A stretch of 64,000 bases of DNA from contig NZ_CP139487.1 of the NCBI RefSeq assembly GCF_034259205.1, positions 2,542,001 through 2,606,000 on the forward strand, read 5' to 3'. The stretch comes from Peredibacter starrii (lineage in GTDB: Bacteria > Bdellovibrionota > Bacteriovoracia > Bacteriovoracales > Bacteriovoracaceae). The position numbers and the translations under genes are program-made. This document shows positions 4,552 to 51,662 of the stretch, piece after piece. How positions within the stretch are numbered: position 1 is the stretch's first letter; each line of letters begins with the position of its first letter. Below the pieces are notes generated by a model. That model had not been told where the DNA came from. It ran no database searches and saw only the letters and a list, made by a program, of their open reading frames with translations.

Positions 4552-5322
4552 ATGAAATCCCTGGTTTTTTGCCTCCTTTTACTCTCACAATTGGCCTGGG
4601 CCCACGATTACCCGGACACCTATCGCTATCAGGTTCTGGTAACCGATAAAACCACATCAACCGTTACTCAAAGTAGCTTTTTGAGTATCCCGAATATCGT
4701 TCATGCCATTCACATCAAAAACCTTCGAAAAATTAAGGCCTCCGTTGTCGTTACAACAGACTGGGTGAAGCCTTATTTCACTGCTTGGGCCAACCGAGAA
4801 AATGAAAACAAATACACTTTGAATTTCTGGGGAGGCCTGGCTCGAATCCCTGGTATGAATGATGAAGCATTTGCGATTACTGCCTGTCATGAATTGGGTC
4901 ACGTTATAGGCGGAACTCCACGAATTAAAATCAAAGAGTTTCTTTGGTCATCGGCCGAAGGTCAAAGCGATTATTTCGCGACTTCGGTTTGTATGAAAAA
5001 TTATTTTAAATTTGTGAATCAAACCAAGAAGCTAACCATTCCAAAAAAGCTCTCTGAGACGGCCTTCACACTCTGTAGAACAACCTACTCGAATGAATTA
5101 GAATTTCTTATTTGCCTGAATACGAACAAAGGTATTGAGGGCTTTGCGGCCATGCTCGAGCACCTGTCTCAGTATAAAGAACAGCTATCAATCGAAACTC
5201 CAAGCAAGAAACAAGTCAAAGTCACAACCTTTGATAGCTATCCTGATACCCAATGCCGAATTGATACTCTTTTTCAAGGAAGTCTAGGACAACCTCGTCC
5301 GGCCTGTTGGTTCGCTAAATGA
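4552..5322 (+). CDS. Secreted HExxH zinc metalloprotease-like protein, first of a tandem pair
   Basis: A 256-residue protein with a signal peptide (hydrophobic core 3-16, AWA-H cleavage near 17). Its zinc-binding text ITACHELGHVIGGTPR has HELGH at 113-117. About 20 residues later comes EGQSDYFA, whose acidic residues could supply the third zinc ligand. The C-terminus has paired cysteines around DSYPDTQCRIDT and ACWF, suggesting a disulphide in the periplasm or outside. It overlaps the next gene, a paralogue with the same layout, by four bases (ATGA). I do not recognise a named peptidase family. Activity is inferred from the zinc motif alone. Confidence 0.75.
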   Translation: MKSLVFCLLLLSQLAWAHDYPDTYRYQVLVTDKTTSTVTQSSFLSIPNIVHAIHIKNLRKIKASVVVTTDWVKPYFTAWANRENENKYTLNFWGGLARIPGMNDEAFAITACHELGHVIGGTPRIKIKEFLWSSAEGQSDYFATSVCMKNYFKFVNQTKKLTIPKKLSETAFTLCRTTYSNELEFLICLNTNKGIEGFAAMLEHLSQYKEQLSIETPSKKQVKVTTFDSYPDTQCRIDTLFQGSLGQPRPACWFAK

Positions 5323-6071
5323 AGAAGCTAGCAGTTCTTCTTTTAGGACTTGCTTTCAATGCCCAAGCAAATTGGAGCTTGGAAATCATTTCTCACGCGA
5401 ACTCATTGTATCAACCAGTCTCATGGGCAACTTTTGGGAAGCCGATTAAATTTGAAATCTCGGAAGATCAAAGTGCATCGGCAAGTGCCGATCATCTGTT
5501 CCAGGAACTGAAAGTCGTAGTGAATTCCGGACTTCTTTCATCTCCACGTCTGACACCAGATGGTCTTCGTATGATCATTTGTCATGAACTGGGACATCTC
5601 TTTGGTGGTGCTCCTCGAAAGAACATTCCGATGGAATGGGAAGGACCTGTGGCCCATGATGGAATGAGTTTCTTAAGTAGTGAAGGTCAGGCCGATTACT
5701 ATGCAGGACTTTATTGTTTTAAGGAAATGATTAAACTTGCTGAAGGCGATAATATCTTCCCGGCCGATACGACTCGCATCGGTCCCAATCTAAGAGCAAA
5801 ATGTGGTGATGATCAACTATGCTTAAGAGGAGCTCTTGCTGGAGTTGATTTTTTAAATCTCAACTACGACTTCCCCATTTCATGTGAAGTGAAAGACGGT
5901 GAAGTTACACCTGTTCTCATTCGGGACTCTTATCCAGGAAGACAATGTCGTCTAGACACAATCGTGAATGCCTCCGCCTGCAATGAACTTCCAAATCTGA
6001 GTTTAGATTTTAATGATGCCTCTAAAAATGAATGCGAATCGAATCAGCGGCCGCTGTGTTGGTATAAATAA
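5319..6071 (+). CDS. Secreted HExxH zinc metalloprotease-like protein, second of a tandem pair
   Basis: A 250-residue paralogue of the preceding gene. It shares a signal peptide (about residues 1-17, NAQA-N), the motif IICHELGHLFGGAPRK (HELGH at 89-93), a downstream SEGQADYYAG, and a C-terminal module around DSYPGRQCRLDT and RPLCWYK. It starts inside the upstream stop codon, so translation is probably coupled and the two proteins made in similar amounts. A strong intrinsic terminator follows at once. The two copies have diverged strongly outside the motifs, so the duplication is old. Substrate unknown. Confidence 0.75.
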   Translation: MKKLAVLLLGLAFNAQANWSLEIISHANSLYQPVSWATFGKPIKFEISEDQSASASADHLFQELKVVVNSGLLSSPRLTPDGLRMIICHELGHLFGGAPRKNIPMEWEGPVAHDGMSFLSSEGQADYYAGLYCFKEMIKLAEGDNIFPADTTRIGPNLRAKCGDDQLCLRGALAGVDFLNLNYDFPISCEVKDGEVTPVLIRDSYPGRQCRLDTIVNASACNELPNLSLDFNDASKNECESNQRPLCWYK

Positions 6072-7142: not shown

Positions 7143-8198
7143 ATGATTAGACTCTGTATACTTCTGCTTCTGGTGAGTTGTGGTAAACCGATCACAGAAT
7201 CGGGAGACGCAAAAAAATCCGAGAATGCCCTTAAAGAAGGCGTTATTGAGGGTCTCTATCTGGATCAAGGCATGTTCATGAATTTTGATTATCTGCCTCT
7301 GACAGGTGAAATCAAAGATCAGAAAAAACATTGGTCAGGTGATTCCTGGCGTTTAAAGTTTGGTTCAGTCAATTATCGTTGGAACTCTCCCACCCACGAG
7401 ACAAGAAATTATCCCTCGCCTCACCCTAGAGATTTGAAACGGTATTCAATCGATGATTTGAAGCAACTATCTGCCACTGAGAAATATGACTTGTGGCTTG
7501 GTCGCTATGATTACTTCTTGAAAAATCTGGTGGAAAATTATCTGCCTGAGAAACCGCTTGATTGGGAGGGCCTCTGTCACGGGTGGGCCGGCGCCAGTAT
7601 CAACCACAATGAACCACAACCTAAAATGATGATGAACCCGGATGGAATTCTTATTCCATTCGGCTCTGCTGATATTAAAGCTCTTCTCACTTATTATTAC
7701 TCATTGGAGACAGTTCCTGATAGTTTTCAGCTCGGAAAACGCTGCGAAAGCTACCGACCTGTTGATGATGAAAATTGCGATAATGATGTGACTCCTGGAG
7801 AATTTCACACGGTACTGGCCAACAAGTTGGGTCTTCGGGGTGAGAGCTTCATTATGGATATTGATCGCTATCTGGAAGTGTGGAACCATCCGATTATTTC
7901 TTATAACACTCACATTATGAAAGACATCAGAGTGAAAGGTTCCAATCGAAGAGTCATTCTAAGAACGGCCCTCTACTATGTAGATGTGGCCCTGAAAAGT
8001 TCCTGGAATCCAACAATCGGAACACTCTCCCATTTGATTTCAAAACAACAGCTCGACTATGAGTTAGAACTCACGTCAGGTGGAAATATTGTTGGTGGAA
8101 GATGGATATCAAGAGATCGTCCGGACTTTATGTGGACGATTAAAAAGGTCGAAAATTTTACGGGATATTTGTCGGGACTTAATGAGCTAATAAAATAG
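7143..8198 (+). CDS. Lipoprotein of the oomycete-elicitor transglutaminase family
   Basis: A 351-residue protein with a lipoprotein signal (LLLVSC, Cys13), so probably anchored in an outer-envelope leaflet. From memory the core follows the family of the Phytophthora GP42 elicitor (Pfam TGase_elicitor): HWSGDSWRL...VNYRW (63-80), ATEKYDLWLG, WEGLCHGWAGA (141-151), an FGSADIKALLTYYYS segment, TPGEFHTVLANKLG (217-230) and SFIMDID (235-241). Expected catalytic residues are Cys145, His222 and Asp239. The family cross-links glutamine to lysine side chains. A longer paralogue lies at 48399-50063. A strong GGAGG ribosome site precedes the ATG but is paired in a hairpin. Codon use looks less biased than in the paralogue. 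Catalytic activity is inferred. Confidence 0.8.
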   Translation: MIRLCILLLLVSCGKPITESGDAKKSENALKEGVIEGLYLDQGMFMNFDYLPLTGEIKDQKKHWSGDSWRLKFGSVNYRWNSPTHETRNYPSPHPRDLKRYSIDDLKQLSATEKYDLWLGRYDYFLKNLVENYLPEKPLDWEGLCHGWAGASINHNEPQPKMMMNPDGILIPFGSADIKALLTYYYSLETVPDSFQLGKRCESYRPVDDENCDNDVTPGEFHTVLANKLGLRGESFIMDIDRYLEVWNHPIISYNTHIMKDIRVKGSNRRVILRTALYYVDVALKSSWNPTIGTLSHLISKQQLDYELELTSGGNIVGGRWISRDRPDFMWTIKKVENFTGYLSGLNELIK

Positions 8199-21332: not shown

Positions 21333-22181
21333 ATGAGACTTAAACATTTAGCAAATACAATTTTACTGATTGATACAAAAAATTTGGTGAGCACTGAGAG
21401 AAGTGCGACCACTAAACTTCTTCATCATTTAAAGGAAATAGAGCGAAGAAAGCTCTATTGCGACTTAAAATATTCGTCTTTGTTCGCTTATTGCGTGCAT
21501 GAATTAGGTTATTCAGAAGGCGCGGCCCAAAGACGAATTGTGGCCGCACGCGCTTTGGCCGAAATGCCAGAAATTGAGACAAAAATAGAAGACGGAAGTC
21601 TAAATCTCACAAATATTTCATTAGTGAATCAATTCATTGATGATCCTATTCAAAAGCGTGAGGTCCTCAAAGAAGTTGAAAATTTAACCAAGACAGAATG
21701 TGAGAAGAAATTATTTGAAATTACTGGCAAAGAAGAAAAACCAAAAGATAAACGGAAAAGGATTTCAAAAGATAAGATCCAGGTAGCGATTGTTTTATCG
21801 GATGAAACGATGGCCTATGTTGAAAAACTAAAAGGTCTTCTTGGCAAAAATCTTGATATGGATCAACTCGTTCAATTTATGGCGAAAAAGGCCATTGAAT
21901 CAGTAGAAAAATCTAAGTTTAAACAGACCACACCGAGAAAATCACTTCCGCCAGTGAAAGTAGGACGTGTCATTCCGGCCGCAGTGAAAAGAGATGTGTA
22001 CTCACGAGATAAGAAATGCACCAATTGTGGTTCATTCCGTAATCTAAATTACGACCATATCCTTCCCTATTCTATGGGAGGACCAAGTACCAAAGAGAAT
22101 TTGAGAATATCGTGCTCACCGTGCAATCAGCGAGCGAGGATAAAGGCGGGGCTTGTGGCCCCGCCGAGGAAATTTACTTGA
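21333..22181 (+). CDS. HNH endonuclease-domain protein of a Bdellovibrionota multicopy family
   Basis: A 282-residue protein. The N-terminal half is helical and contains LLHHLKEIERRKLYCDLKYSSLFAYCVHELGYSEGAAQRRI, text I associate with a family repeated in Bdellovibrio-group genomes. The C-terminus is a zinc-ribbon HNH fold: KRDVYSRDKKCTNCG, NYDHILPYSMGG, NLRISCSPCNQR. The HNH core suggests DNA cutting, but the target is unknown. The ATG at 21333 is preferred. A TTG 36 bases earlier is in frame but coincides with a TTGACA promoter-like hexamer. It overlaps the 3' end of the convergent S8 protease gene by eight bases. Confidence 0.8.
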   Translation: MRLKHLANTILLIDTKNLVSTERSATTKLLHHLKEIERRKLYCDLKYSSLFAYCVHELGYSEGAAQRRIVAARALAEMPEIETKIEDGSLNLTNISLVNQFIDDPIQKREVLKEVENLTKTECEKKLFEITGKEEKPKDKRKRISKDKIQVAIVLSDETMAYVEKLKGLLGKNLDMDQLVQFMAKKAIESVEKSKFKQTTPRKSLPPVKVGRVIPAAVKRDVYSRDKKCTNCGSFRNLNYDHILPYSMGGPSTKENLRISCSPCNQRARIKAGLVAPPRKFT

Positions 22182-23505
22182 ACATTGGAGTAAGAGGCAT
22201 TGGAACAACTGAGAATGGGTAAACTCTTTCAGATCTGAATGAAGAAGGAGCTTTTACCGCAGACTTAGCGCGAGAGATTGCTTCAGTTACTGACATTGAG
22301 TTTGTCATTTGAGCAGCAACAACAGCGCGTTCAGTGTTCACGATACCGCCAGTAGCAACTTTATCAGCTAGGAAGCCCTTAGGGTCAACTGTGCCCATAA
22401 GGATTTTCTTGATTTCAACTGGCTTAAGACGAGGGTTTGCCTCTTTAATTTGTGCAGCAACATTAGCTACGAAAGGAGAAGCTTGAGATGTACCAGATAC
22501 TTTTAGATATTCGTTGCCTGGGATCGCCGAGTGAATCAGCATGCCTGGAGCTGCGATATCAACCATTTTTTTACCGTAGTTAGAGAATGGCGCGAAGAAT
22601 TCATTCTTATAAGTAGCACCAACTGTAATTACGTTGTCAGCTTTGATGTTTGCTGGAGATGTACCGAACTGATCGTTCGACATACCATCGTTACCGGCAG
22701 CAAATACGAAAAGTGTGTTTGGTGCAGCAGCTACGAAGTTTTGGCCATGTTTTACCATTGCAGCGATGAACATAGCAGCGGCACGGTTAGAATCTTCTTC
22801 AGAAGGTTTTTTGAAGAAAATAATACGGTAAGCGTTGTCTGTGATCATTTTAGCTTGGTTGAAACCAGTACCGAATGAACCGTTAGCAACGTCGGCTTTG
22901 TGGTAAGCCGTGAAACGAGCGATGTCTGTAAGCATTTTCATTTGCTCAGCAGCTAGAGCGTCGAAAGCTTTCTCAAGAAGTGACCAACGGTCAGCTTGGT
23001 AAGCTTTGTTGCGAGCTAGGCCGTCGAAGAAAGGCTTCACTTCAGTTGGGATAAGCTTGATGCCCATAACGTTGTTCTTAGTGTTGCGGATAGAGATACC
23101 AGCAACGTGTGTACCGTGAACGAAGTTACCGAACTTGCCCATTTCTTTGATGAAGTTAGGGTCTTTTACTTTTTCTTTTAACCAAGCGATCTCAGATTCA
23201 GTTGCTTGACCAAGGAACATTTTTCCTTGAATGTCGAAATACTTCGAGCAATCAGGAGAGAAAGTGCCAAGGTAAGAGTAATCGATGATGTTGCCGTTTT
23301 GTTCAGCAAAGTTCCAACCGTGAACGTCGTCTTGGTAACCGTTGCCATCGTTGTCACGACGGTCTTCAACTTCGCCAGCGTTAGTCCAAAGATTTGGAAC
23401 GATCATTTCGTGTTTGTAATCAAGGCCAGAGTCGATAACAGCGATAGTAGCAGCGTTTGCTTGAAAACCGATGGTCGCAAGAACGCACAAAGAAATCCAT
23501 TTCAT
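22174..23505 (-). CDS. Secreted subtilisin-like (S8) serine protease
   Basis: A 443-residue protein with a signal peptide (residues 1-18, ending ANA). The catalytic triad is visible as Asp25 in IAVIDSGLDYKH, His130 in VHGTHVAG and Ser340 in SGTSQASP. The oxyanion Asn region is FVFAAGNDG. There is almost no propeptide between the signal peptide and the catalytic Asp strand. An insertion of roughly 60 residues lies between the Asp and His regions (CSKYFDIQGKMFLGQATESEI). Start chosen at 23505 because GAGGAG precedes it; an upstream in-frame extension lacks a ribosome site. A neighbouring S1 protease suggests a digestive role in the periplasm, the medium or prey. Confidence 0.92.
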   Translation of the reverse strand: MKWISLCVLATIGFQANAATIAVIDSGLDYKHEMIVPNLWTNAGEVEDRRDNDGNGYQDDVHGWNFAEQNGNIIDYSYLGTFSPDCSKYFDIQGKMFLGQATESEIAWLKEKVKDPNFIKEMGKFGNFVHGTHVAGISIRNTKNNVMGIKLIPTEVKPFFDGLARNKAYQADRWSLLEKAFDALAAEQMKMLTDIARFTAYHKADVANGSFGTGFNQAKMITDNAYRIIFFKKPSEEDSNRAAAMFIAAMVKHGQNFVAAAPNTLFVFAAGNDGMSNDQFGTSPANIKADNVITVGATYKNEFFAPFSNYGKKMVDIAAPGMLIHSAIPGNEYLKVSGTSQASPFVANVAAQIKEANPRLKPVEIKKILMGTVDPKGFLADKVATGGIVNTERAVVAAQMTNSMSVTEAISRAKSAVKAPSSFRSERVYPFSVVPMPLTPMFK

Positions 23506-23564
23506 ATAAATTCTCCTCAGAGTTAGAGATAAATAATTTTCTCTAGTAATGAAAGTGATCGTCA

Positions 23565-23592
23565 AATAAAAAGGCCTCCGTAAGGAGGCCTT
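23565..23592 (-). terminator. Intrinsic terminator of the S1 protease gene
   Basis: AAGGCCTCC (23571-23579) pairs with GGAGGCCTT (23584-23592) around GTAA. On the minus strand a TTTTTATTT tail follows. It separates the S1 gene from the downstream S8 gene. Confidence 0.85.
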
Positions 23593-23618: not shown

Positions 23619-24497
23619 TTAACGGATGGTTCTGAGAGCTTCGATGTTTGTGATGTATGTAACATCTTCGCCACGACAGCCAGTGCTTGGACACTTGTTA
23701 GAAACTTGGCAGCCTTGAGCAGAGCTGTATACATAATCGTTTTCTCCGCGAACTAGGATACCTTCAACTTCACCAGTGCGAGAGTTGAATACTGCAGAAC
23801 CAGAGTTACCGCCGTAAGTATCAAGGTTAGCTACGAAATACTTTGTATTAAGAGAACGAACGTTCGCGCCATCAGCAATCTTCGTTGGAAGACCAGTTGG
23901 GTGACCGATTACTGTTACAGCTGTACCAGAAGCGATTTTACCTGAACGACGGAAAGTAAGTGGACGACGGTTAGCAACTTTGCGGTCAAGCTCGATTACT
24001 GCGTAGTCATCTTTTGACACTTGATCAAGTGTACGAGAGATGATGCGCTTACATGAATAGATGTTTGAAGCAGCAACGTTTACTGTACCTTGTTCAGCGC
24101 TATCAACTTTGTAGTCGAAAACCCATTTCCAAGAAGCACAGTCATTATTGTCTTTAATACAGTGACCAGCAGTCACTAGAACGTTTTCAGAAACCAGGAA
24201 GCCAGAACAGTTAGCGGCCGTGATTTGCTGAGAGAATCTTTCTGATTTACAAACACCGCGGCTTTCAAGAGTTTCAGCTTGAATCGCGATTTCGCCGTTA
24301 GCGGCTTTTTTAAGGTTAGCTCCAGCGATCATTGCAGCTGTAGAACGAGATAATTCAACCATAGCAGAGTCACGAGACTCGAAAACGTCCATGCGGTTGT
24401 CTTCGCCGTAAATCACATCCATTTGCTTGTTAGAGGCAAGGGCCTGGGCCGAGATAGCGATAGTTGAAAGAACAAGAATTGAATTAATTAGTTTCAT
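23619..24497 (-). CDS. Secreted trypsin/V8-like (S1) serine protease
   Basis: A 292-residue protein with a signal peptide (about 1-21). A region of about 60 residues before the catalytic domain may be a propeptide (possible cleavage near ESRGVCKSER). Triad: His112 in VTAGHC, Asp164 in KDDYAVIEL and Ser232 in YGGNSGSAV, where N replaces the D of the usual GDSGG. IGHPTGLPTKIADG is typical of glutamyl-endopeptidase-like bacterial S1 enzymes. Several cysteines near the end (CQVSNKCPSTGC) suggest disulphides. It has its own ribosome site and terminator and lies just upstream of the S8 protease gene. Confidence 0.9.
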   Translation of the reverse strand: MKLINSILVLSTIAISAQALASNKQMDVIYGEDNRMDVFESRDSAMVELSRSTAAMIAGANLKKAANGEIAIQAETLESRGVCKSERFSQQITAANCSGFLVSENVLVTAGHCIKDNNDCASWKWVFDYKVDSAEQGTVNVAASNIYSCKRIISRTLDQVSKDDYAVIELDRKVANRRPLTFRRSGKIASGTAVTVIGHPTGLPTKIADGANVRSLNTKYFVANLDTYGGNSGSAVFNSRTGEVEGILVRGENDYVYSSAQGCQVSNKCPSTGCRGEDVTYITNIEALRTIR

Positions 24498-44218: not shown

Positions 44219-45273
44219 AAATCAATCGGAAAGGACTCTCTTCACAGATTCTCATCGCGGCCATGGCCGGCTCAGTTCTGATGTTCATGCTTCAAGCGGC
44301 GCGAGCTCAATCAAACGATCAGGCCCTGCAGAACATGCAGAGTAACAACAGCAGTAATGCGGCCCTGGCACAGGCATCAGGTGCAAACCAAACTTACCAA
44401 AGCTCGAACACGGGCCAGGTTCTTCAAATCGGCATGCCTCAGAAAAGTCTTGGCCGCCGTCTTTGGGAGAACACTTCCCTCTCATACTATCAACAGTTCC
44501 TCGGACCTACTGCCGCTGGCGGTGGTAACACGTACAACGTGTTCCAGGAGGGTCTAGATACTCCAAACTCGGGCTTTGCTCCTATGCAAAGTTTCCATGC
44601 TGTGAACCTTCGTCACCAGATCAATACTGACTGGGCAGTGGGTGCGACTCTTTCAGCGGCTAACGGATATACTAAAGAAGTTAATAATAAAGATCGTAGC
44701 GGCGGCACTTTCACTAACAGACCTGATAGTGAGTTCTTCAACGCCCGCGCCTATGTGAGTCTACCGTCTCTTCGTTTTGCGGCCGGTACACTTTTCTCAA
44801 CTCTTTCATATGAATTCCCGACTTCGGAAATTTCGAAAGATGATGAAATGCGCTTTGGTTGGGTGGCCTCGAATAGTTTTGCTTTCAATCTACCGAACCT
44901 TCACTGGAACGTAGGTCTTATGAGTCAGATCTATCGTATTTATTATAATAATAACGTGAAGGCCGCTCCATTCGTTGGTGGTAGACCAACTGCTCTTCAA
45001 ACGATGATTGTGAGTGGTGGTCCTTATGCCAACTATCGCTTCAACGATAAGTGGCAAGTGGGTTCAGTGATCACAATGGACTGGGACCAGCGTGGTGCTC
45101 AGACGGGTTCACGTGACTTCAACAACAACCTTTCTCACAGAGGAAGACTGTCGCTGACGTATTTCCCTCAGCAGATCAAGTATCTTCAAAGTGTAGGATT
45201 GTTCTCTCAGGCGCTTTTGAAGTTCCGTCCGGAAACGACGGCCTTTGGTGCTGACTTCGCTGTTCGCTTCTAG
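44215..45273 (+). CDS. Outer-membrane beta-barrel protein
   Basis: A 352-residue protein with a signal peptide (LIAAMAGSVLMFMLQAARA-Q) and an Asn/Gln/Ser-rich stretch of about 40 residues. A series of alternating amphipathic strands follows (for example SFHAVNLRHQINTDWAVGATLSAA). The end is FGADFAVRF, with the C-terminal Phe typical of BAM-assembled barrels. About 12 strands are plausible. It overlaps the preceding gene by four bases (ATGA), completing a cytoplasm / inner-membrane / outer-membrane set. Its stop codon shares a CTAG palindrome with the convergent L,D-transpeptidase gene. Function unknown: pore, adhesin or structural link. Confidence 0.75.
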   Translation: MKINRKGLSSQILIAAMAGSVLMFMLQAARAQSNDQALQNMQSNNSSNAALAQASGANQTYQSSNTGQVLQIGMPQKSLGRRLWENTSLSYYQQFLGPTAAGGGNTYNVFQEGLDTPNSGFAPMQSFHAVNLRHQINTDWAVGATLSAANGYTKEVNNKDRSGGTFTNRPDSEFFNARAYVSLPSLRFAAGTLFSTLSYEFPTSEISKDDEMRFGWVASNSFAFNLPNLHWNVGLMSQIYRIYYNNNVKAAPFVGGRPTALQTMIVSGGPYANYRFNDKWQVGSVITMDWDQRGAQTGSRDFNNNLSHRGRLSLTYFPQQIKYLQSVGLFSQALLKFRPETTAFGADFAVRF

Positions 45274-47246
45274 AAAAAATTAGATTTCATCTCCGGGCCC
45301 GAATAACTGAAAATAATCGAGCCCGGAAGATCTTGTCTCAAAGCTTCCAACTGACTCACATTTCTTTTCTTCTTATCCAAATGCTTCATCACTGCTCCTG
45401 AAACTCCCAGACAACCTTCGGTCGTCGCCATGTATTTAGAGACACGAGTGGCATCAGTCATTCTATAAATGGCGTTCTCAAGTTCCGTCGCAGATGCAGT
45501 GCTTGGATTAATGTTCTTCATCAGACGAACAGAATCAACCGGGCCCGAAAATTTCTTTCTCTCCCTGTCCCAATCTCTCACTCCAATTGAATAATCTTCC
45601 ATCGGGGTGATCCATTCATGCATCACCACCGCACGACTGGCCATGTTCGTATTGTTTCTATCGATACCGTTTAAGATCACATTATTTCCGAATGTCGAAC
45701 CACTGCTCGCTTTACCGGCAATAACAAATCCCTCAGATGATTTAAGAGAACCATTCACGTTCGACATTTCAGGACTTCCACCTAGGCCGTCAGTTCCGGC
45801 ACCGTTATCTGAACTTCCGATTCCATGGGACACCCAGGTATTATGCAGAACTTCAAGGTTATTCAGATCGAGAACATACATTCGTCTTTCATTAGAAGGA
45901 CGAGAGTAATCGACGATGGTGATTTGATCCGGAAGCTTCACACTGCCCTTGTACTTACTCATCACATTCGCCCGCCCCTTCATCGCCTTCATAAAAGCGT
46001 CTTTGGAAATAAAAGGACATTCTGGTTTACCATCATCACCGGTTTTAAACACATGGTCTTTAACCAGCTCCTGAGCGATGTCGTTTTGAAATTTACTCAT
46101 ATCAAGATTCTGGTTCCCAAGGACATCTTGATAAAAGATCGCTCTCATACGCAGGCGCAAGGTTTTGACGTCACCACTATTGGACTTAATTTGAGAGGCA
46201 TATGACTGGACCTGACTGCGGACCGAGGATGATACATCATAACGATTAAAAACATCATCGATGTTGCCGTTGTACTCAAGACCTCTGAGATCTTTTTCGA
46301 GGAGGCGAACTAAGAGCCCACTAGGTTGTTTCCCCGGATCATTCATGACGTTCTCAGGTTTACAAAATGGAGAATTCTGAAACTTCTGTTTCATGTCCTC
46401 ATATATAGTGTCCATGGAACTGCCGGCCACCTGCCCCAACGCATTGGCGAAGGTCTGCACTTCACGATGAGAGTGAGATGGCTCATCACAATCTTCTTCA
46501 TTATGCGGAGTTAATTCAGGAGCAGAATCGACCACTACCTTTTCAGGTATTGCCTTTTTTACTTTTTCTGGCTTAACTTCTGAAACGGACCCTGTATCTT
46601 CTGCCGTGCTGGCCGTACTTCTCGCCACACCTTGCTGAATGGATTTAAGTCCATCCGGAAGTTTCTTCATAATGTTCTTACAAATGATGGTATTTTTCTG
46701 AGGAGATTTTGAATGAGGTCCACAAACTTCACCCGCCACCAGAGAAATTTCCTGAAGCTCTAAGAGATCCTTTTCGGAAGGATCATCCAGGAAAGAATAG
46801 TTTCCACCCTTGGCCTGAAATTTCTTCTCACAGTTTGAAAATGATGAGCGTCTTTCTTCTGCTGAACCAAAAGGCACACAGAGACCTTTATCAAAGAGCA
46901 TCGGCTGACATTGGATTTCGCTCTTACCGCAAGTTCCCTGACTGTAGCCAGGATTGGACCTCGTTGGCATCTGACAAAGTTTTTTTCCGCCACTTAAGCG
47001 AAGGACACTTGGCCATCCACCATAAAAACAATTAAAGCGTGAATCTGCCCAGGCACTTTCAATGAGTGTAAAACGAAGAAGAAAGTTCTTCTCACTCTCC
47101 ACTAACAACTTGGTGTCTTGTATATCAATTTCGGCGAGGAGACTTTTCAGGTCGCGAGTCCAGGACTCTCGCATGAGAGCATCGTTGGTCCGAGCTAGGA
47201 CCGAAAACGATAAGAATAGGCCTAGAAAGACTATCCATTTGGACAT
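45270..47246 (-). CDS. Periplasmic L,D-transpeptidase-like protein (YkuD_2 / murein L,D-transpeptidase catalytic family)
   Basis: A 658-residue protein with a signal peptide (ending VLA-R). A cysteine-rich N-terminal region (CGKSEIQCQPMLFDKGLCVPFG) is followed by an acidic Lys/Pro/Glu linker and helices. The C-terminal catalytic domain begins ITIVDYSRPSNERRMYVLDL, with VSHGIGSS, GSLKSSEGFVIAG and His543 in AVVMHEW, and ends at the nucleophile motif TTEGCLGVS (Cys612). Such enzymes cross-link or edit peptidoglycan stem peptides. The His-Cys spacing (about 70 residues) looks long for the family, implying an insertion. GGGAGG precedes the ATG. Confidence 0.8.
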   Translation of the reverse strand: MSKWIVFLGLFLSFSVLARTNDALMRESWTRDLKSLLAEIDIQDTKLLVESEKNFLLRFTLIESAWADSRFNCFYGGWPSVLRLSGGKKLCQMPTRSNPGYSQGTCGKSEIQCQPMLFDKGLCVPFGSAEERRSSFSNCEKKFQAKGGNYSFLDDPSEKDLLELQEISLVAGEVCGPHSKSPQKNTIICKNIMKKLPDGLKSIQQGVARSTASTAEDTGSVSEVKPEKVKKAIPEKVVVDSAPELTPHNEEDCDEPSHSHREVQTFANALGQVAGSSMDTIYEDMKQKFQNSPFCKPENVMNDPGKQPSGLLVRLLEKDLRGLEYNGNIDDVFNRYDVSSSVRSQVQSYASQIKSNSGDVKTLRLRMRAIFYQDVLGNQNLDMSKFQNDIAQELVKDHVFKTGDDGKPECPFISKDAFMKAMKGRANVMSKYKGSVKLPDQITIVDYSRPSNERRMYVLDLNNLEVLHNTWVSHGIGSSDNGAGTDGLGGSPEMSNVNGSLKSSEGFVIAGKASSGSTFGNNVILNGIDRNNTNMASRAVVMHEWITPMEDYSIGVRDWDRERKKFSGPVDSVRLMKNINPSTASATELENAIYRMTDATRVSKYMATTEGCLGVSGAVMKHLDKKKRNVSQLEALRQDLPGSIIFSYSGPEMKSNFF

Positions 47247-47322: not shown

Positions 47323-48192
47323 TTACTTAGTATAGATACCAAAGGCCTCTCTGTAGGCATTCGAGAGGTCCCACTCACCCCAAAAATCCTTCTGCTTACT
47401 TTTCTTATCCAGGGCCTCTAGATCAATCGGCTGGTAATAATACATCGGAACTTTGAGAAGCATGCACCAACCTTTCGCCGGATCTTCGCGCGTGTATTCA
47501 TAGTCAGTGTATTTTGTGACCTCTGAACATTCAGCATTGTTATGCATGAAGATGTCAGTCCAGGCCTTCATCGAAACCGGACTATAAGTATAACGATAGT
47601 CCATCACCTTTTCTTTTACCTTACCGTCTTCACGAACATAAACGTATGGCGCCACATGGAACCACCACTCAAAGTTATAGCGACGAATATATTTTCTGGT
47701 GAAGAACATGAAGACTTTCATTGAACGCACTTGATGCTTTGTCAGCATCTCCCAACTCCACACATGAGCGCGGTTATAGCATTGAGACTCTTGCTGATAA
47801 CGACGATTCATCCCCTTATAAATCTTGTAGGCCTCATCATAAGTAGGAATAACAGTCGCGCGATATTCCTTGATTGAACTTGTGGAAGCGAATTCTTCCA
47901 TTCCTTTTTCTTCTGGCTCCGGAATACTTTCCACCGCCAAAAGTTCGCGCTCAGAAGTCGTAGTGACATTTACCCACTCCTTCTTTTTGAGCGAAGTCTT
48001 GAGATGAGGAATAAGATCAGAGTTTTTATCTAATCTCACTACCCGTCCGTTCCCCAGATAGACCAGGGTCTCAGACTCTCCATTTTGGGCGTAATCAATC
48101 TGCAAAATCTTGGTAGCATCTACCTCAACCGTGGCGTAGGCACTCGTTCCTAGGACAAATACAGAGGCGAGAAGGCCAAAAGTCCATTTCAT
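47323..48192 (-). CDS. Secreted protein-glutaminase-like enzyme (Gln_deamidase_2 family)
   Basis: A 289-residue protein with a signal peptide (1-20, ending AYA). The catalytic half matches bacterial protein-glutaminase: QCYNRAHVWSWEML (Cys138), a KVFMFF segment, WWFHVAPYV (His179) and KVMDYRYTYSPVSMKAWTDIF (Asp198). The Cys-His-Asp spacing of 41 and 19 residues is close to what I recall for the Chryseobacterium enzyme. These enzymes deamidate protein-bound glutamine to glutamate. The roughly 110 residues before the core may be an inhibitory propeptide. Start at 48192 because GGAGG lies upstream. It is divergent from the transglutaminase gene. Activity inferred. Confidence 0.75.
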   Translation of the reverse strand: MKWTFGLLASVFVLGTSAYATVEVDATKILQIDYAQNGESETLVYLGNGRVVRLDKNSDLIPHLKTSLKKKEWVNVTTTSERELLAVESIPEPEEKGMEEFASTSSIKEYRATVIPTYDEAYKIYKGMNRRYQQESQCYNRAHVWSWEMLTKHQVRSMKVFMFFTRKYIRRYNFEWWFHVAPYVYVREDGKVKEKVMDYRYTYSPVSMKAWTDIFMHNNAECSEVTKYTDYEYTREDPAKGWCMLLKVPMYYYQPIDLEALDKKSKQKDFWGEWDLSNAYREAFGIYTK

Positions 48193-48362
48193 GTTCAAAC
48201 CTCCAGGTCTTAACAAAATCTTCAAAATGATGATTCATTCCCTGATTAAAGTCGTCACCTTAAAACAACCTTAAGCCTATGAAATCATTAGTCAAAATTC
48301 TTATGTAATCTTTACTTAAAAACATGATTTTACTAGCGGTTTCAGGCAGCAATTGATACTCC

Positions 48363-48398: not shown

Positions 48399-50063
48399 AT
48401 GAAAAAACATCTTCTCATGTCACTCGCGTTGGTTGTTTTGACCACACCGGTCTTCGCTCAATACGATAACCAAGACGATTGCGACGCTGAAACTCAAGAC
48501 TGTTCTACTCCTGGTGGAGTGAAAGAGCCCAACAAGACAATTTATCCTTACAAGCCATTTGAGACGTCAAAAATTAATGAACGTCTTCGTGCTTTGAACG
48601 AGGGTGAAAAATACATTTCAAACATCTTTGAAATGGAAAAGCGCAAACTCAATACGGCCAATACTAAAGTTCAACCATGGGGTGGTTCTTACTGGCCACT
48701 TAACGGCGGACAAATCGCCAACACTTACCAGGACAAAGACTATACGACATTGATCTTCTCTGCTCGTAAACACATTGACTGGAAGAAGAACGTAAAAGAC
48801 TTTAAAAAGCGCGCGGAAGAAATTTATCCAATCATCAATCAACTGACTGATGAAGACCTTGCTAAACTTGCTCCTTCTGAAAAATATGACCTTCTTCTAG
48901 GTGATACAACTTTCGATCTTACCAACCGTATTTGGGCATTCGCTGAAAGATGGGGTAACGAAAAGAAATGGGGCTTCCTTTCTGCAATTGAAATTCCAGA
49001 AGGCTACCGTATTCCTGAGGCCAACAAACTTATGGCAACTTGGGAAGGTATCTGTCACGGATGGGCAGTGGCCGCTGGTCACTATGAGCGTCCAGAAAAA
49101 ACAGTGACCGTGACTCTTCCAAACGGAAGAAAGCTTCCTTTCTATCCAAATGATATCAAGGCCCTTATTTCTCTTATGTGGGCCAACTCAACGATCCAGT
49201 CGAACGTTATCTTCGAAGGTAACCGTTGTAACAAGAAAAACCCTGATAAAGATAAGAACGGTCGTTATATTGACGTTGAAAAAGATCGTGATGATCTTGA
49301 ACTTATCCCTCGTTGTGCTGACGTTCACCCTGGTATTTTCCACGTTTCAATGGTCAACATCCTTGGAGTTGAAGGAAGAAGTTTCGTAGTAGATAAAACG
49401 GCCGAAGCAGCGGTAGCAAACCAACCAGTATCTGGTTATGAGCTTTTTTACTACAACCCTAAGACAGGTAAAGAAGGTCCTCTAAGCGATTCAGTTATCT
49501 CTCGTAACGAGTATGGCGAAAAAGATCCGTTCCGCGTTTCTCGTAACCCTGAAGCTGTTAGCATCGTAGGTGTTCAAGTTAATCTTAAGTATGTTGACTG
49601 GGAATTCCCAAAGAAGAAAGAACTTAACTCTGAGCTAGACGATAAGATCAAGTCATTCACATTCAACTACGACCTCGAGATCAACTCTAAGGGTAATGTT
49701 GTTGGTGGCCAGTGGCGCGTGAATAAGAAAGGTGGTCAAGGTCTTGGTGGTTCAACTCACCAACCAGACTTCTTCTGGGTTGTTCCTCGTGATTGGAAAA
49801 ACTACTTCCAGCCTCTTCCTGGTCTTCCAGAGTGGGACTTTGCTAAAGGAGTTCCACCGAAAGAATATAAGGCAGCAGCTTGGGCCGCTCATAGCTTCAT
49901 CTACGAAGAATCTGCGCGCTTCTTCACAGAGAGCCCGAAGTGTCCGGTGTTCCCAATGAACGGTGGGGAGCCAATTAAAGTTAACTGTGAGTTTAAGTAT
50001 CCACGTCCGCAACCACTAATTCAGGTTGTGAACAAGCTTCTTGAAGAATCTAGAAAATGGTAA
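48399..50063 (+). CDS. Secreted elicitor-type transglutaminase, longer paralogue
   Basis: A 554-residue protein with a signal peptide (1-20, PVFA-Q) and an acidic Cys-containing N-terminal stretch. The core matches the 7143-8198 protein and, as remembered, the Phytophthora GP42 elicitor: PWGGSYWPLNGG (93-104), APSEKYDLLLGD, WEGICHGWAVAAGHYE (215-230, Cys219), FYPNDIKALISLMWA, HPGIFHVSMVNILGVEGRSFVVD (two parts, 310-332; His315, Asp332) and NQPVSGYELFYYNP. The family joins glutamine and lysine side chains. It carries an extra C-terminal region of about 60 residues with a Cys pair. Codon use is strongly biased (CTT, CGT, GGT), suggesting high expression. Terminator directly downstream. Confidence 0.82.
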   Translation: MKKHLLMSLALVVLTTPVFAQYDNQDDCDAETQDCSTPGGVKEPNKTIYPYKPFETSKINERLRALNEGEKYISNIFEMEKRKLNTANTKVQPWGGSYWPLNGGQIANTYQDKDYTTLIFSARKHIDWKKNVKDFKKRAEEIYPIINQLTDEDLAKLAPSEKYDLLLGDTTFDLTNRIWAFAERWGNEKKWGFLSAIEIPEGYRIPEANKLMATWEGICHGWAVAAGHYERPEKTVTVTLPNGRKLPFYPNDIKALISLMWANSTIQSNVIFEGNRCNKKNPDKDKNGRYIDVEKDRDDLELIPRCADVHPGIFHVSMVNILGVEGRSFVVDKTAEAAVANQPVSGYELFYYNPKTGKEGPLSDSVISRNEYGEKDPFRVSRNPEAVSIVGVQVNLKYVDWEFPKKKELNSELDDKIKSFTFNYDLEINSKGNVVGGQWRVNKKGGQGLGGSTHQPDFFWVVPRDWKNYFQPLPGLPEWDFAKGVPPKEYKAAAWAAHSFIYEESARFFTESPKCPVFPMNGGEPIKVNCEFKYPRPQPLIQVVNKLLEESRKW

Positions 50064-50071
50064 AATAAAGA

Positions 50072-50101
50072 AAGAGCTCCCTAGTGGAGCTCTTCTTTTT
50101 T
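50072..50101 (+). terminator. Intrinsic terminator of the transglutaminase gene
   Basis: AAGAGCTCC and GGAGCTCTT arms around CTAGT, followed by C and six T. It overlaps the last codons of the convergent metalloprotease gene. Confidence 0.85.
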
Positions 50102-50749
50102 AAGAATTTGTCTCGCCATATCTCCCACGATGTAACCGATGGCATACGGAGCTGAATCATGTTCAGCGGCCGATTTATGATCAAAGCCGATCTTATGGGT
50201 CCATTCGTGAGCAAGGTTACTAACCACGCTATCTACCGTGAAGTTCTTGTAGTACTTCCAGTTCGTATTAATTACATTCGTGTCTCCAGTCGTATAACCA
50301 ATCACCTTTGACCAGGGACGATTGTACATATTGAGATAGAAGTTCATCTCACCTGGAGTGTCTTGTTGAAGTGTTTCACGACCTTCCATAAAGATGTCGT
50401 AAATCTCTTCGTTTGAAAGACCTTTATTAGAAGCAAAGGCCCTCTCACCTTTCGTATTACGAAAGTTAATCACGCGCTCTTTGAACTCTTCCGTATTCAC
50501 AACTCTTTCTAAAAGCGCGAAGGCGGAATCAAGTTTTGCACGTGCTTCTTGATTGTAATTTGTGACCTGCATCCCTTTCACCGAAAGGTGACCGGTTTGG
50601 ACTTTGGCAGGATCTAAATATTCTGGATCCATGGGTGAAAAGACCCCAGGAGCATGATCATGTTTATGATCAATAATCATTTCTTGTGATTGAGATTGAT
50701 TAAGAGAAACGGTGAAAACCAGTGCCAGCGAAAAAATCCATTTTTTCAT
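50081..50749 (-). CDS. Secreted metzincin-like zinc metalloprotease
   Basis: A 222-residue protein with a signal peptide (about 1-21, ending SQS-Q). The motif LAHEWTHKIGFDHKSA has HEWTH at 181-185 and a third histidine at 191, giving HExxHxxGxxH, the metzincin zinc site. No classical Met-turn is obvious; SAPYAIGYIVGD follows. A His-rich segment DHKHDHAP lies just after the signal peptide. Proteolysis is inferred from the motif. It is convergent with the transglutaminase gene. Confidence 0.75.
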   Translation of the reverse strand: MKKWIFSLALVFTVSLNQSQSQEMIIDHKHDHAPGVFSPMDPEYLDPAKVQTGHLSVKGMQVTNYNQEARAKLDSAFALLERVVNTEEFKERVINFRNTKGERAFASNKGLSNEEIYDIFMEGRETLQQDTPGEMNFYLNMYNRPWSKVIGYTTGDTNVINTNWKYYKNFTVDSVVSNLAHEWTHKIGFDHKSAAEHDSAPYAIGYIVGDMARQILKKEELH

Positions 50750-50891: not shown

Positions 50892-51662
50892 ATGAAATGG
50901 ATGACTGTCTTTGCTTTATTAATGAGCCTTAATCTTTGGGCCCGTCCCGTAGTTCTTCTGAGCTACTTTGATGCTTTTGATAAGGCCCCTTTCAATAACT
51001 CTGAGAGGGTTGCCCTGGCCCTGAATGAGAAGCTTAAAAACCATCCGGAATTTGAATTGAAGCTTTGTGCTCTTTCAACTGTGTTTGATAAATCATTCGC
51101 ACAGCTCGAAAATTGCCTTAAAAATGAATCTCAAGCTCCCGCCTTGGTGTTGGGGCTAGGTGAGGCCAATTGTAATTTTAAAATCGAAATTGCGGGCCGA
51201 AACTTTGATAAGACCAAGGGCCCTGATAATGAAGGCAACGAAAGAAAGAGCACAAAAATTCTGGCAGAAGGTGAGGCCGCAGTGGCGCTCAACTACCCTT
51301 TGGATAAAATGTACTGCTCGCTTGATCAGAAAAATCGCGCTCTAGTGGAAGTTTCAAATAATGCCGGAACATTTGTTTGTAACAATCTCGCTTATCAGTT
51401 TGCTCACTATTATCCTGAAGAGACTTTCGGATTTATTCATGTGCCAAGTCACAACTGTAAGGACCTACCTGCAAAAACAGAAGTGGCAATTGCCAATCTT
51501 TCGAACATGATTCCAGAGGCGATAAACCACGCTCCGAAACTCCTGCCAATTTATAAAAATGAGATTAAGACCCTTCGAAAGTCATATGAGAACGATGCCT
51601 GCTTAAATGAGTTCTATAAGCGTGTTAAAGGAATTGACGAGAAAGGTCCTTGGCCATTTTAA
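50892..51662 (+). CDS. Secreted pyroglutamyl-peptidase-like (C15) protein
   Basis: A 256-residue protein with an N-terminal signal sequence (VFALLMSLNLWA-R). The body follows pyroglutamyl peptidase I: VVLLSYFDAFDKAPFNNS, a glutamate in FKIEIAGRN (Glu99), GPDNEGN, SNNAGTFVCNNLAY (Cys163) and FGFIHVPSH (His183). Together these give a Glu-Cys-His triad. The family removes N-terminal pyroglutamate and is normally cytoplasmic, so export is unusual. Several extra cysteines suit a periplasmic location. It overlaps the convergent oxidoreductase gene by 38 bases. Confidence 0.72.
   Translation: MKWMTVFALLMSLNLWARPVVLLSYFDAFDKAPFNNSERVALALNEKLKNHPEFELKLCALSTVFDKSFAQLENCLKNESQAPALVLGLGEANCNFKIEIAGRNFDKTKGPDNEGNERKSTKILAEGEAAVALNYPLDKMYCSLDQKNRALVEVSNNAGTFVCNNLAYQFAHYYPEETFGFIHVPSHNCKDLPAKTEVAIANLSNMIPEAINHAPKLLPIYKNEIKTLRKSYENDACLNEFYKRVKGIDEKGPWPF

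Follow-up and report, generated by a model that had tools for sequence, protein, structure and literature searches.

A predicted secreted GP42-family transglutaminase of Peredibacter starrii and the occurrence of the oomycete elicitor family among bacterial predators

The closest described relative of the protein considered here is GP42 (PDB 3tw5), an elicitor transglutaminase of Phytophthora sojae. In PMC10318531, GP42 is described as unusual among papain-like enzymes in that a His directly follows the Cys (the 'CH' motif), and this His is reported to contact one of two residues, an Asn of a core strand or an Asp borne by a different helix. PMC4915311, citing Reiss 2011, states that GP42 homologs occur only in oomycetes and in marine Vibrio, and names Vibrio as the donor.

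We analysed a window of the Peredibacter starrii chromosome, that is, the whole stretch of 64,000 nucleotides, which encodes two proteins of this kind, P0001 and P0002. P0001 resembles GP42 in family, CH motif, helix Asp, Asn of the NQP motif and fold (319 of 344 residues), but differs from it in having only 26% identity over 406 columns, in the absence of a four-Cys insert and in the replacement of the Pep-13 Trp. GP42-type proteins of Myxococcota (Nannocystis and a Polyangiaceae MAG), together with L059, a protein from a MAG belonging to the same family as P. starrii, share the Pfam family and catalytic motif with P0001 but carry the four-Cys insert and form a clade with GP42. The TGase_elicitor proteins of Vibrio fall into the same deep clade (III) as P0001 and differ in their sparse occurrence (a single match in each of 11 among 247 Vibrionaceae genomes) and in the ricin-type lectin domain annotated for the plasmid-borne one. 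Streptococcal IdeS/Mac-1 cysteine proteases weakly match the papain-like core of P0001 (Z ~6) but, at 7-10% identity, belong to a separate family.

GP42-family genes of the window

The open reading frames of P0001 (554 aa) and P0002 (351 aa) are real and lie exactly where the first-pass annotation had placed them (Table 1). The two proteins are homologous (29% identity over 331 columns, BLASTP E 3e-26), carry the motifs that had been listed as shared (WEGICHGWA and WEGLCHGWA, DIKAL, PGIFH and PGEFH in P0001 and P0002, respectively), and both match Pfam PF16683 (TGase_elicitor; curated cut-off 25 bits) at 121.8 and 90.1 bits. GP42 is the sole credible sequence match in the PDB for either protein (E 9.5e-19 for P0001, 6.5e-16 for P0002). 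No NCBIfam model matches P0001 or P0002, which we counted against the best explanation. An initial count of two such genes proved too low for the genome as a whole, which holds 9 matches in 8 genes.

Signal-like starts are visible by eye in the TGase_elicitor paralogs of the genome, and export is predicted for them from sequence. P0002 begins with MIRLCILLLLVSCGKP, a lipobox with Cys13, and P0001 with a signal-peptide-like stretch in which 0 of 21 positions are invariant across orthologs, so that the earlier distinction between a lipoprotein and a secreted protein stands by the same reading. The longer N-terminus also attributed to P0001 is mostly part of the GP42 architecture, to which a poorly predicted leader is added.

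The stronger codon bias ascribed to P0001 was borne out by its CAI of 0.678, which ranks third among the 56 open reading frames of the window, compared with 0.432 and rank 42 for P0002 (reference, ribosomal-region genes, with a mean of 0.683). This ribosomal-level bias suggests that P0001 is an abundant exoprotein, codon bias being an indirect sign of expression. The two window genes ranked higher, both above the ribosomal-region mean, encode an exported-looking subtilase and an exported-looking trypsin-like protease.

Table 1. Coordinates of the genes and residues discussed, as positions in the window unless stated otherwise.
Feature	Coordinates	Strand	Evidence or remark
P0001, predicted secreted GP42-type transglutaminase, clade III, long type	48399..50063	+	PF16683, 3tw5 match, conserved place
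Signal-peptide-like N-terminus of P0001, aa 1-21, ending TTPVFA/Q	48399..48461	+	by-eye reading
P0001 catalytic Cys219-His220 (CH motif)	49053..49058	+	invariant, alignments A1 and A2, 22/22 orthologs
P0001 Asp252 (DIKAL)	49152..49154	+	invariant; separate helix 250-262 in model
P0001 His315 (PGxFH)	49341..49343	+	invariant
P0001 Ala340-Asn341	49416..49421	+	Asn invariant; position 340 variable vs GP42 Trp
P0002, GP42-type transglutaminase, predicted lipoprotein, clade II	7143..8198	+	PF16683 90.1 bits, trees
P0002 catalytic Cys145-His146	7575..7580	+	aligned with Cys219-His220
Subtilase and trypsin-like protease	22174-23565, 23619-24497	both -	CAI ranks 1 and 2
YkuD_2 L,D-transpeptidase, variable neighbour	45270..47246	-	86.6 bits; 10 matches in 22 regions
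Divergent neighbour, predicted secreted protein-glutaminase (PF18626)	47323..48225	-	Pfam 51.8 bits
Metzincin-like small protein, HEWTHKIGFDH, convergent neighbour	50081..50749	-	in 18/22 regions
Pyroglutamyl-peptidase-like (PF01470), signal-like start	50892..51662	+	70.3 bits; 19 matches in 22 regions
Own-genome copy of transglutaminase-lipoprotein-glutaminase unit	L189:6580-10275 = own genome 1324579-1328274

Active site, predicted fold and proposed reaction

An AlphaFold2 model of P0001 built from a 30-row alignment reached a pLDDT of 74.2 and a pTM of 0.78, with residues 17-53 and several loops below a pLDDT of 50. Searched with Foldseek, the model had 3tw5 as its sole match with E <= 0.001 (E 5.7e-15), and VIA-align superposed model residues 53-554 on 3tw5 with Z 29.2 and an rmsd of 4.2 over 319 of 344 residues, indicating that, as modelled, P0001 has the GP42 fold. 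Family membership and fold are secure for P0001; activity, export, substrate, abundance and predatory role are what we infer.

Conservation of the Cys, His and Asp, on which the first-pass annotation had staked its proposal, holds in a 30-sequence alignment (A2) and extends to the second His: Cys219, His220, Asp252, His315 and Asn341 are invariant there and in 22/22 P0001 orthologs, as is Asp332. The motifs noted earlier are thus active-site motifs, given that the Cys-His pair, the Asp and the Asn do not vary. In the model, Asp252 lies within helix 250-262 and Asn341 opens strand 341-352, and mapping by alignment identifies these two residues as the counterparts of the catalytic residues of GP42. 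They lie in the most conserved segment of P0001 among its orthologs, residues 212-461, in which 68 of 250 columns are invariant. The 3tw5 chain has a Ser at the position aligning with the catalytic Cys, the crystal presumably being that of an inactive Cys-to-Ser mutant of GP42.

The reading we favour, with moderate confidence, is that P0001, an enzyme with a papain-like core belonging to the GP42 (TGase_elicitor) family, is secreted and cross-links or modifies envelope proteins. P0001 would first be exported; Cys219, aided by His220, Asp252 and Asn341, would then attack the side chain of a protein-bound glutamine, giving a thioester, and resolution of the thioester by a lysine amine (or by water) would leave envelope proteins cross-linked or modified. 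In a Bacteriovoracaceae-like bacterium the likely substrates would be prey-envelope proteins or the predator's own surface proteins.

The pocket of P0001 nevertheless departs from that of GP42 at one place. The Pep-13 Trp, which we take to be important for GP42 activity, stands beside the catalytic Asn and is replaced by Ala, Ser or Gly in 22/22 P0001 orthologs, so P0001 may catalyse a different reaction from GP42 and cross-linking is not assured. A paralog of the L002 type in the same genome retains the Trp. This loss is a reason for caution about the earlier suggestion that the enzyme seals or stiffens a prey-derived structure. Against Pep-13 as printed in PMC9879208, P0001 is identical at 6 of 13 positions and P0002 at 4 of 13 (counted by eye), and neither shows the Pep-13 pattern.

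The replaced Trp is also what lends some weight to a different enzymology, in which family and fold are kept but, with the pocket changed near Asn341, P0001 and its orthologs act as glutamine deamidases or specific cysteine proteases. IdeS-type proteases are the next structural matches after 3tw5 in VIA-align (Z ~6), and predicted protein-glutaminases are also numerous in the genome (12 matches), yet Cys, His, Asp and Asn are all retained, and the likeness to IdeS is weak and may reflect just a common papain-like core; we regard this alternative as unlikely, though a serious one. A second alternative concerns the target and has P0001 building the predator's own surface, acting on its outer-membrane or coat proteins and not on prey. 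That one paralog, P0002, is a predicted lipoprotein and that relatives of P0001 in its deep clade occur in Thiothrix and Vibrio, which are not known as predators, would agree with such a role, but the company P0001 keeps at the top of the codon-bias ranking, a subtilase and a trypsin-like protease, fits a digestive secretome, and we consider an own-surface role improbable.

Conserved neighbours and linked protein-glutaminases

The gene for P0001 occupies a conserved chromosomal place across 22 regions (21 relatives and the window's own), which were selected for holding a long-type match; four genomes of the genus (G001, G004, G020 and G022) were left out, there being no long-type match among the matches listed for them. 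In the 21 relatives P0001 has 43-79% identity. Common flanks across the 22 regions include h41987 (17 matches) and h44215 (18), and conservation extends on the farther side, beyond the pyroglutamyl-peptidase-like gene, to FAD and Tex genes. Many regions hold a second, shorter transglutaminase in tandem with the long type; across all loci together, at least 15 transglutaminase-transglutaminase pairs less than 3 kb apart occur in 13 genomes, among the matches listed.

The convergent metzincin-like neighbour has no Pfam family above cut-off and keeps its HExxHxxGFxH motif in 18/18 cases. It is missing from four regions, two of which (L178 and L179) are short contigs ending near the place and two of which (L176 and L184) are without the gene. 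Transglutaminase of Streptomyces is activated by metalloproteases, and by analogy the metzincin-like metalloprotease could be an activator of P0001. Elsewhere in the window, the overlapping genes at 4552-5322 (+) and 5319-6071 (+) encode exported-looking HELGH metallopeptidase-like proteins, the second with a weak M48 match.

On its other side P0001 is flanked by a divergent gene for a predicted protein-glutaminase, the likelier start of which, by eye, is an internal ATG 33 nt downstream. A conserved pairing of these two genes was rejected, since they adjoin in just 2/22 regions. The Pfam family of the neighbour, PF18626 (Gln_deamidase_2), is equated with protein glutaminase 3A54 in PMC10318531. 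It has 12 matches in the P. starrii genome, a set in which Cys, His and Asp are conserved and catalytic-looking, and is expanded across the genus (26/26 genomes, 2-14 matches each), the proteins being predicted to be secreted.

At other loci, transglutaminase and glutaminase genes do lie together. Drawing on 150 transglutaminase and 150 glutaminase matches, among the matches listed, we counted at least 15 pairs less than 3 kb apart in 12/26 genomes, compared with 1.7 expected under uniform placement; these pairs are not independent, as 12 of the 13 regions read (L248-L258 and, in P. starrii itself, L189) have the same unit. The unit, present in 12 genomes, combines an L002/L004-type transglutaminase and an L019-type glutaminase with a conserved lipoprotein; the thirteenth region, L259, has a different, looser transglutaminase-glutaminase pair. 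In 12/12 cases the lipoprotein of the unit shows conserved blocks and a Cys positioned as in a lipobox, and the one copy scanned has no Pfam family. The genes of the unit are convergent in ten genomes, whereas L252 and L254 have them co-directional; the unit also occurs in two flanking contexts, and its being kept together in two arrangements and two contexts suggests selection for the link.

Distribution of the family and relatives of GP42

TGase_elicitor matches were present in 26/26 genomes searched of the genus, at 1-13 per genome, where one match may be only a gene piece. In the phylum as sampled, 164/290 genomes had the family and 126/290 were without a match; the phylum of Nannocystis had it in 60/235 genomes, and 14 control genomes yielded no match. 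A named scan, covering the best 80 of 465 relatives picked by likeness to L059 and hence biased to GP42-like proteins, found myxobacterial-type carriers (Nannocystis, a Polyangiaceae MAG and Sandaracinus) alongside Halobacteriovorax, Bacteriovorax, Silvanigrella, Thiothrix, Vibrio and Candidatus Electronema. The last three taxa are not known as predators, and their possession of TGase_elicitor proteins indicates that the family is not predation-specific.

Among plasmids, the sole record with the family is a mobilizable Vibrio owensii plasmid, NZ_CP025798.1, whose gene is the one annotated as encoding a ricin-type lectin domain protein. Viral contigs gave 21 pattern matches, with no true relative among them. 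The transglutaminase of L059 is very GP42-like (345 bits) and forms part of an open frame of 1201 aa in which PKD-like repeats can be seen by eye. The terms transglutaminase, TGase and elicitor are absent from the main text of PMC11656739, a 2024 comparative genomics study of Bdellovibrionota predators, and from that of PMC12827227. Our literature search, outside which most subscription papers lay, returned no account of this family or of a protein glutaminase in Bdellovibrio and no relevant account of GP42 in Myxococcota.

Three unrooted trees, of 97 rows, 61 rows and 41 rows (the last with columns filled to 70%), all resolve three deep groups: clade I, with Myxococcota-type proteins, L059 and GP42; clade II, with short predator-type proteins including P0002; and clade III, with proteins of Vibrio, Thiothrix and Electronema and the P0001 group. 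A recent duplication within the genome giving rise to P0001 and P0002 was rejected, a joint clade costing 93.6 log units (AU p 1e-49), as was a single clade of the four own paralogs sampled (AU p 6e-10). Judged from these trees, the eight own paralogs stem from at least two ancient lineages.

GP42 itself is nested within the Myxococcota-type clade in the trimmed tree (96/82, 97/91); its exact neighbour is weakly resolved in the 97- and 61-row trees, and the 61-row tree carries a long-branch warning. A clade of GP42 and Vibrio was rejected (AU p 3e-9 in the 61-row tree, 7e-76 in the 41-row trimmed set), which, together with the grouping of GP42 with Myxococcota-type proteins, argues, on a single oomycete sequence, against the published idea of a Vibrio donor. 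Scores against PF16683 agree with this grouping, reaching 349 bits in Myxococcota but lying at 134-150 bits in Vibrionaceae. It is further supported by a discrete character, a four-Cys insert directly upstream of the active site in GP42 and 31 clade-I rows; the rest of clade I has one Cys in this stretch (17 rows), none (4) or is unscorable (2), and outside clade I 101 rows have zero Cys, one has two and 22 are unscorable, leaving 0/102 scorable rows with four. With 0 Cys in this stretch, P0001 and P0002 stand apart from the GP42 clade in insert as well as in placement.

Pairwise comparison with 153 domains gave GP42 scores of 264 bits to L059, ~200-210 bits to most Nannocystis rows and 123 bits to the best Vibrio protein. 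Direct transfer between oomycetes and the P. starrii lineage, in either direction, would account for their common PF16683 family but is very improbable, with P0002 in clade II, P0001 in clade III and GP42 in the Myxococcota-type clade, and with GP42 scoring 96.7 bits to P0001 against 268 bits to the Polyangiaceae MAG protein (L088) in the same comparison. On these alignments and trees, the nearest bacterial relatives of GP42 that we found are of the Myxococcota type, and neither P. starrii nor Vibrio. To the question of gene transfer raised by the first-pass annotation, the phylogeny, run with one oomycete sequence, thus offers an answer without this bacterium, GP42 grouping with the Myxococcota type. 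As to the donor, several MAGs are uncertainly named and an unrooted tree proves no direction. We tentatively propose, as a possibility, that a predatory bacterium of the Myxococcota type, and not Vibrio, was the source of GP42, and that the family as a whole serves bacterial predators chiefly as an exoenzyme. In Bacteriovoracaceae-like genomes these enzymes would work with secreted protein-glutaminases on prey or envelope glutamines.

The most interesting outcome is a changed picture of where the relatives of the oomycete elicitor occur: within a phylum of bacterial predators, TGase_elicitor proteins are common and present in multiple copies, as against the published restriction to oomycetes and Vibrio. 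Pep-13, which lies within GP42, is a classic pattern that plants recognise, and the likely donor of GP42 is revised. For the predators themselves, which can be cultured in the laboratory, the family and its companions provide a testable set of protein-modifying enzymes.
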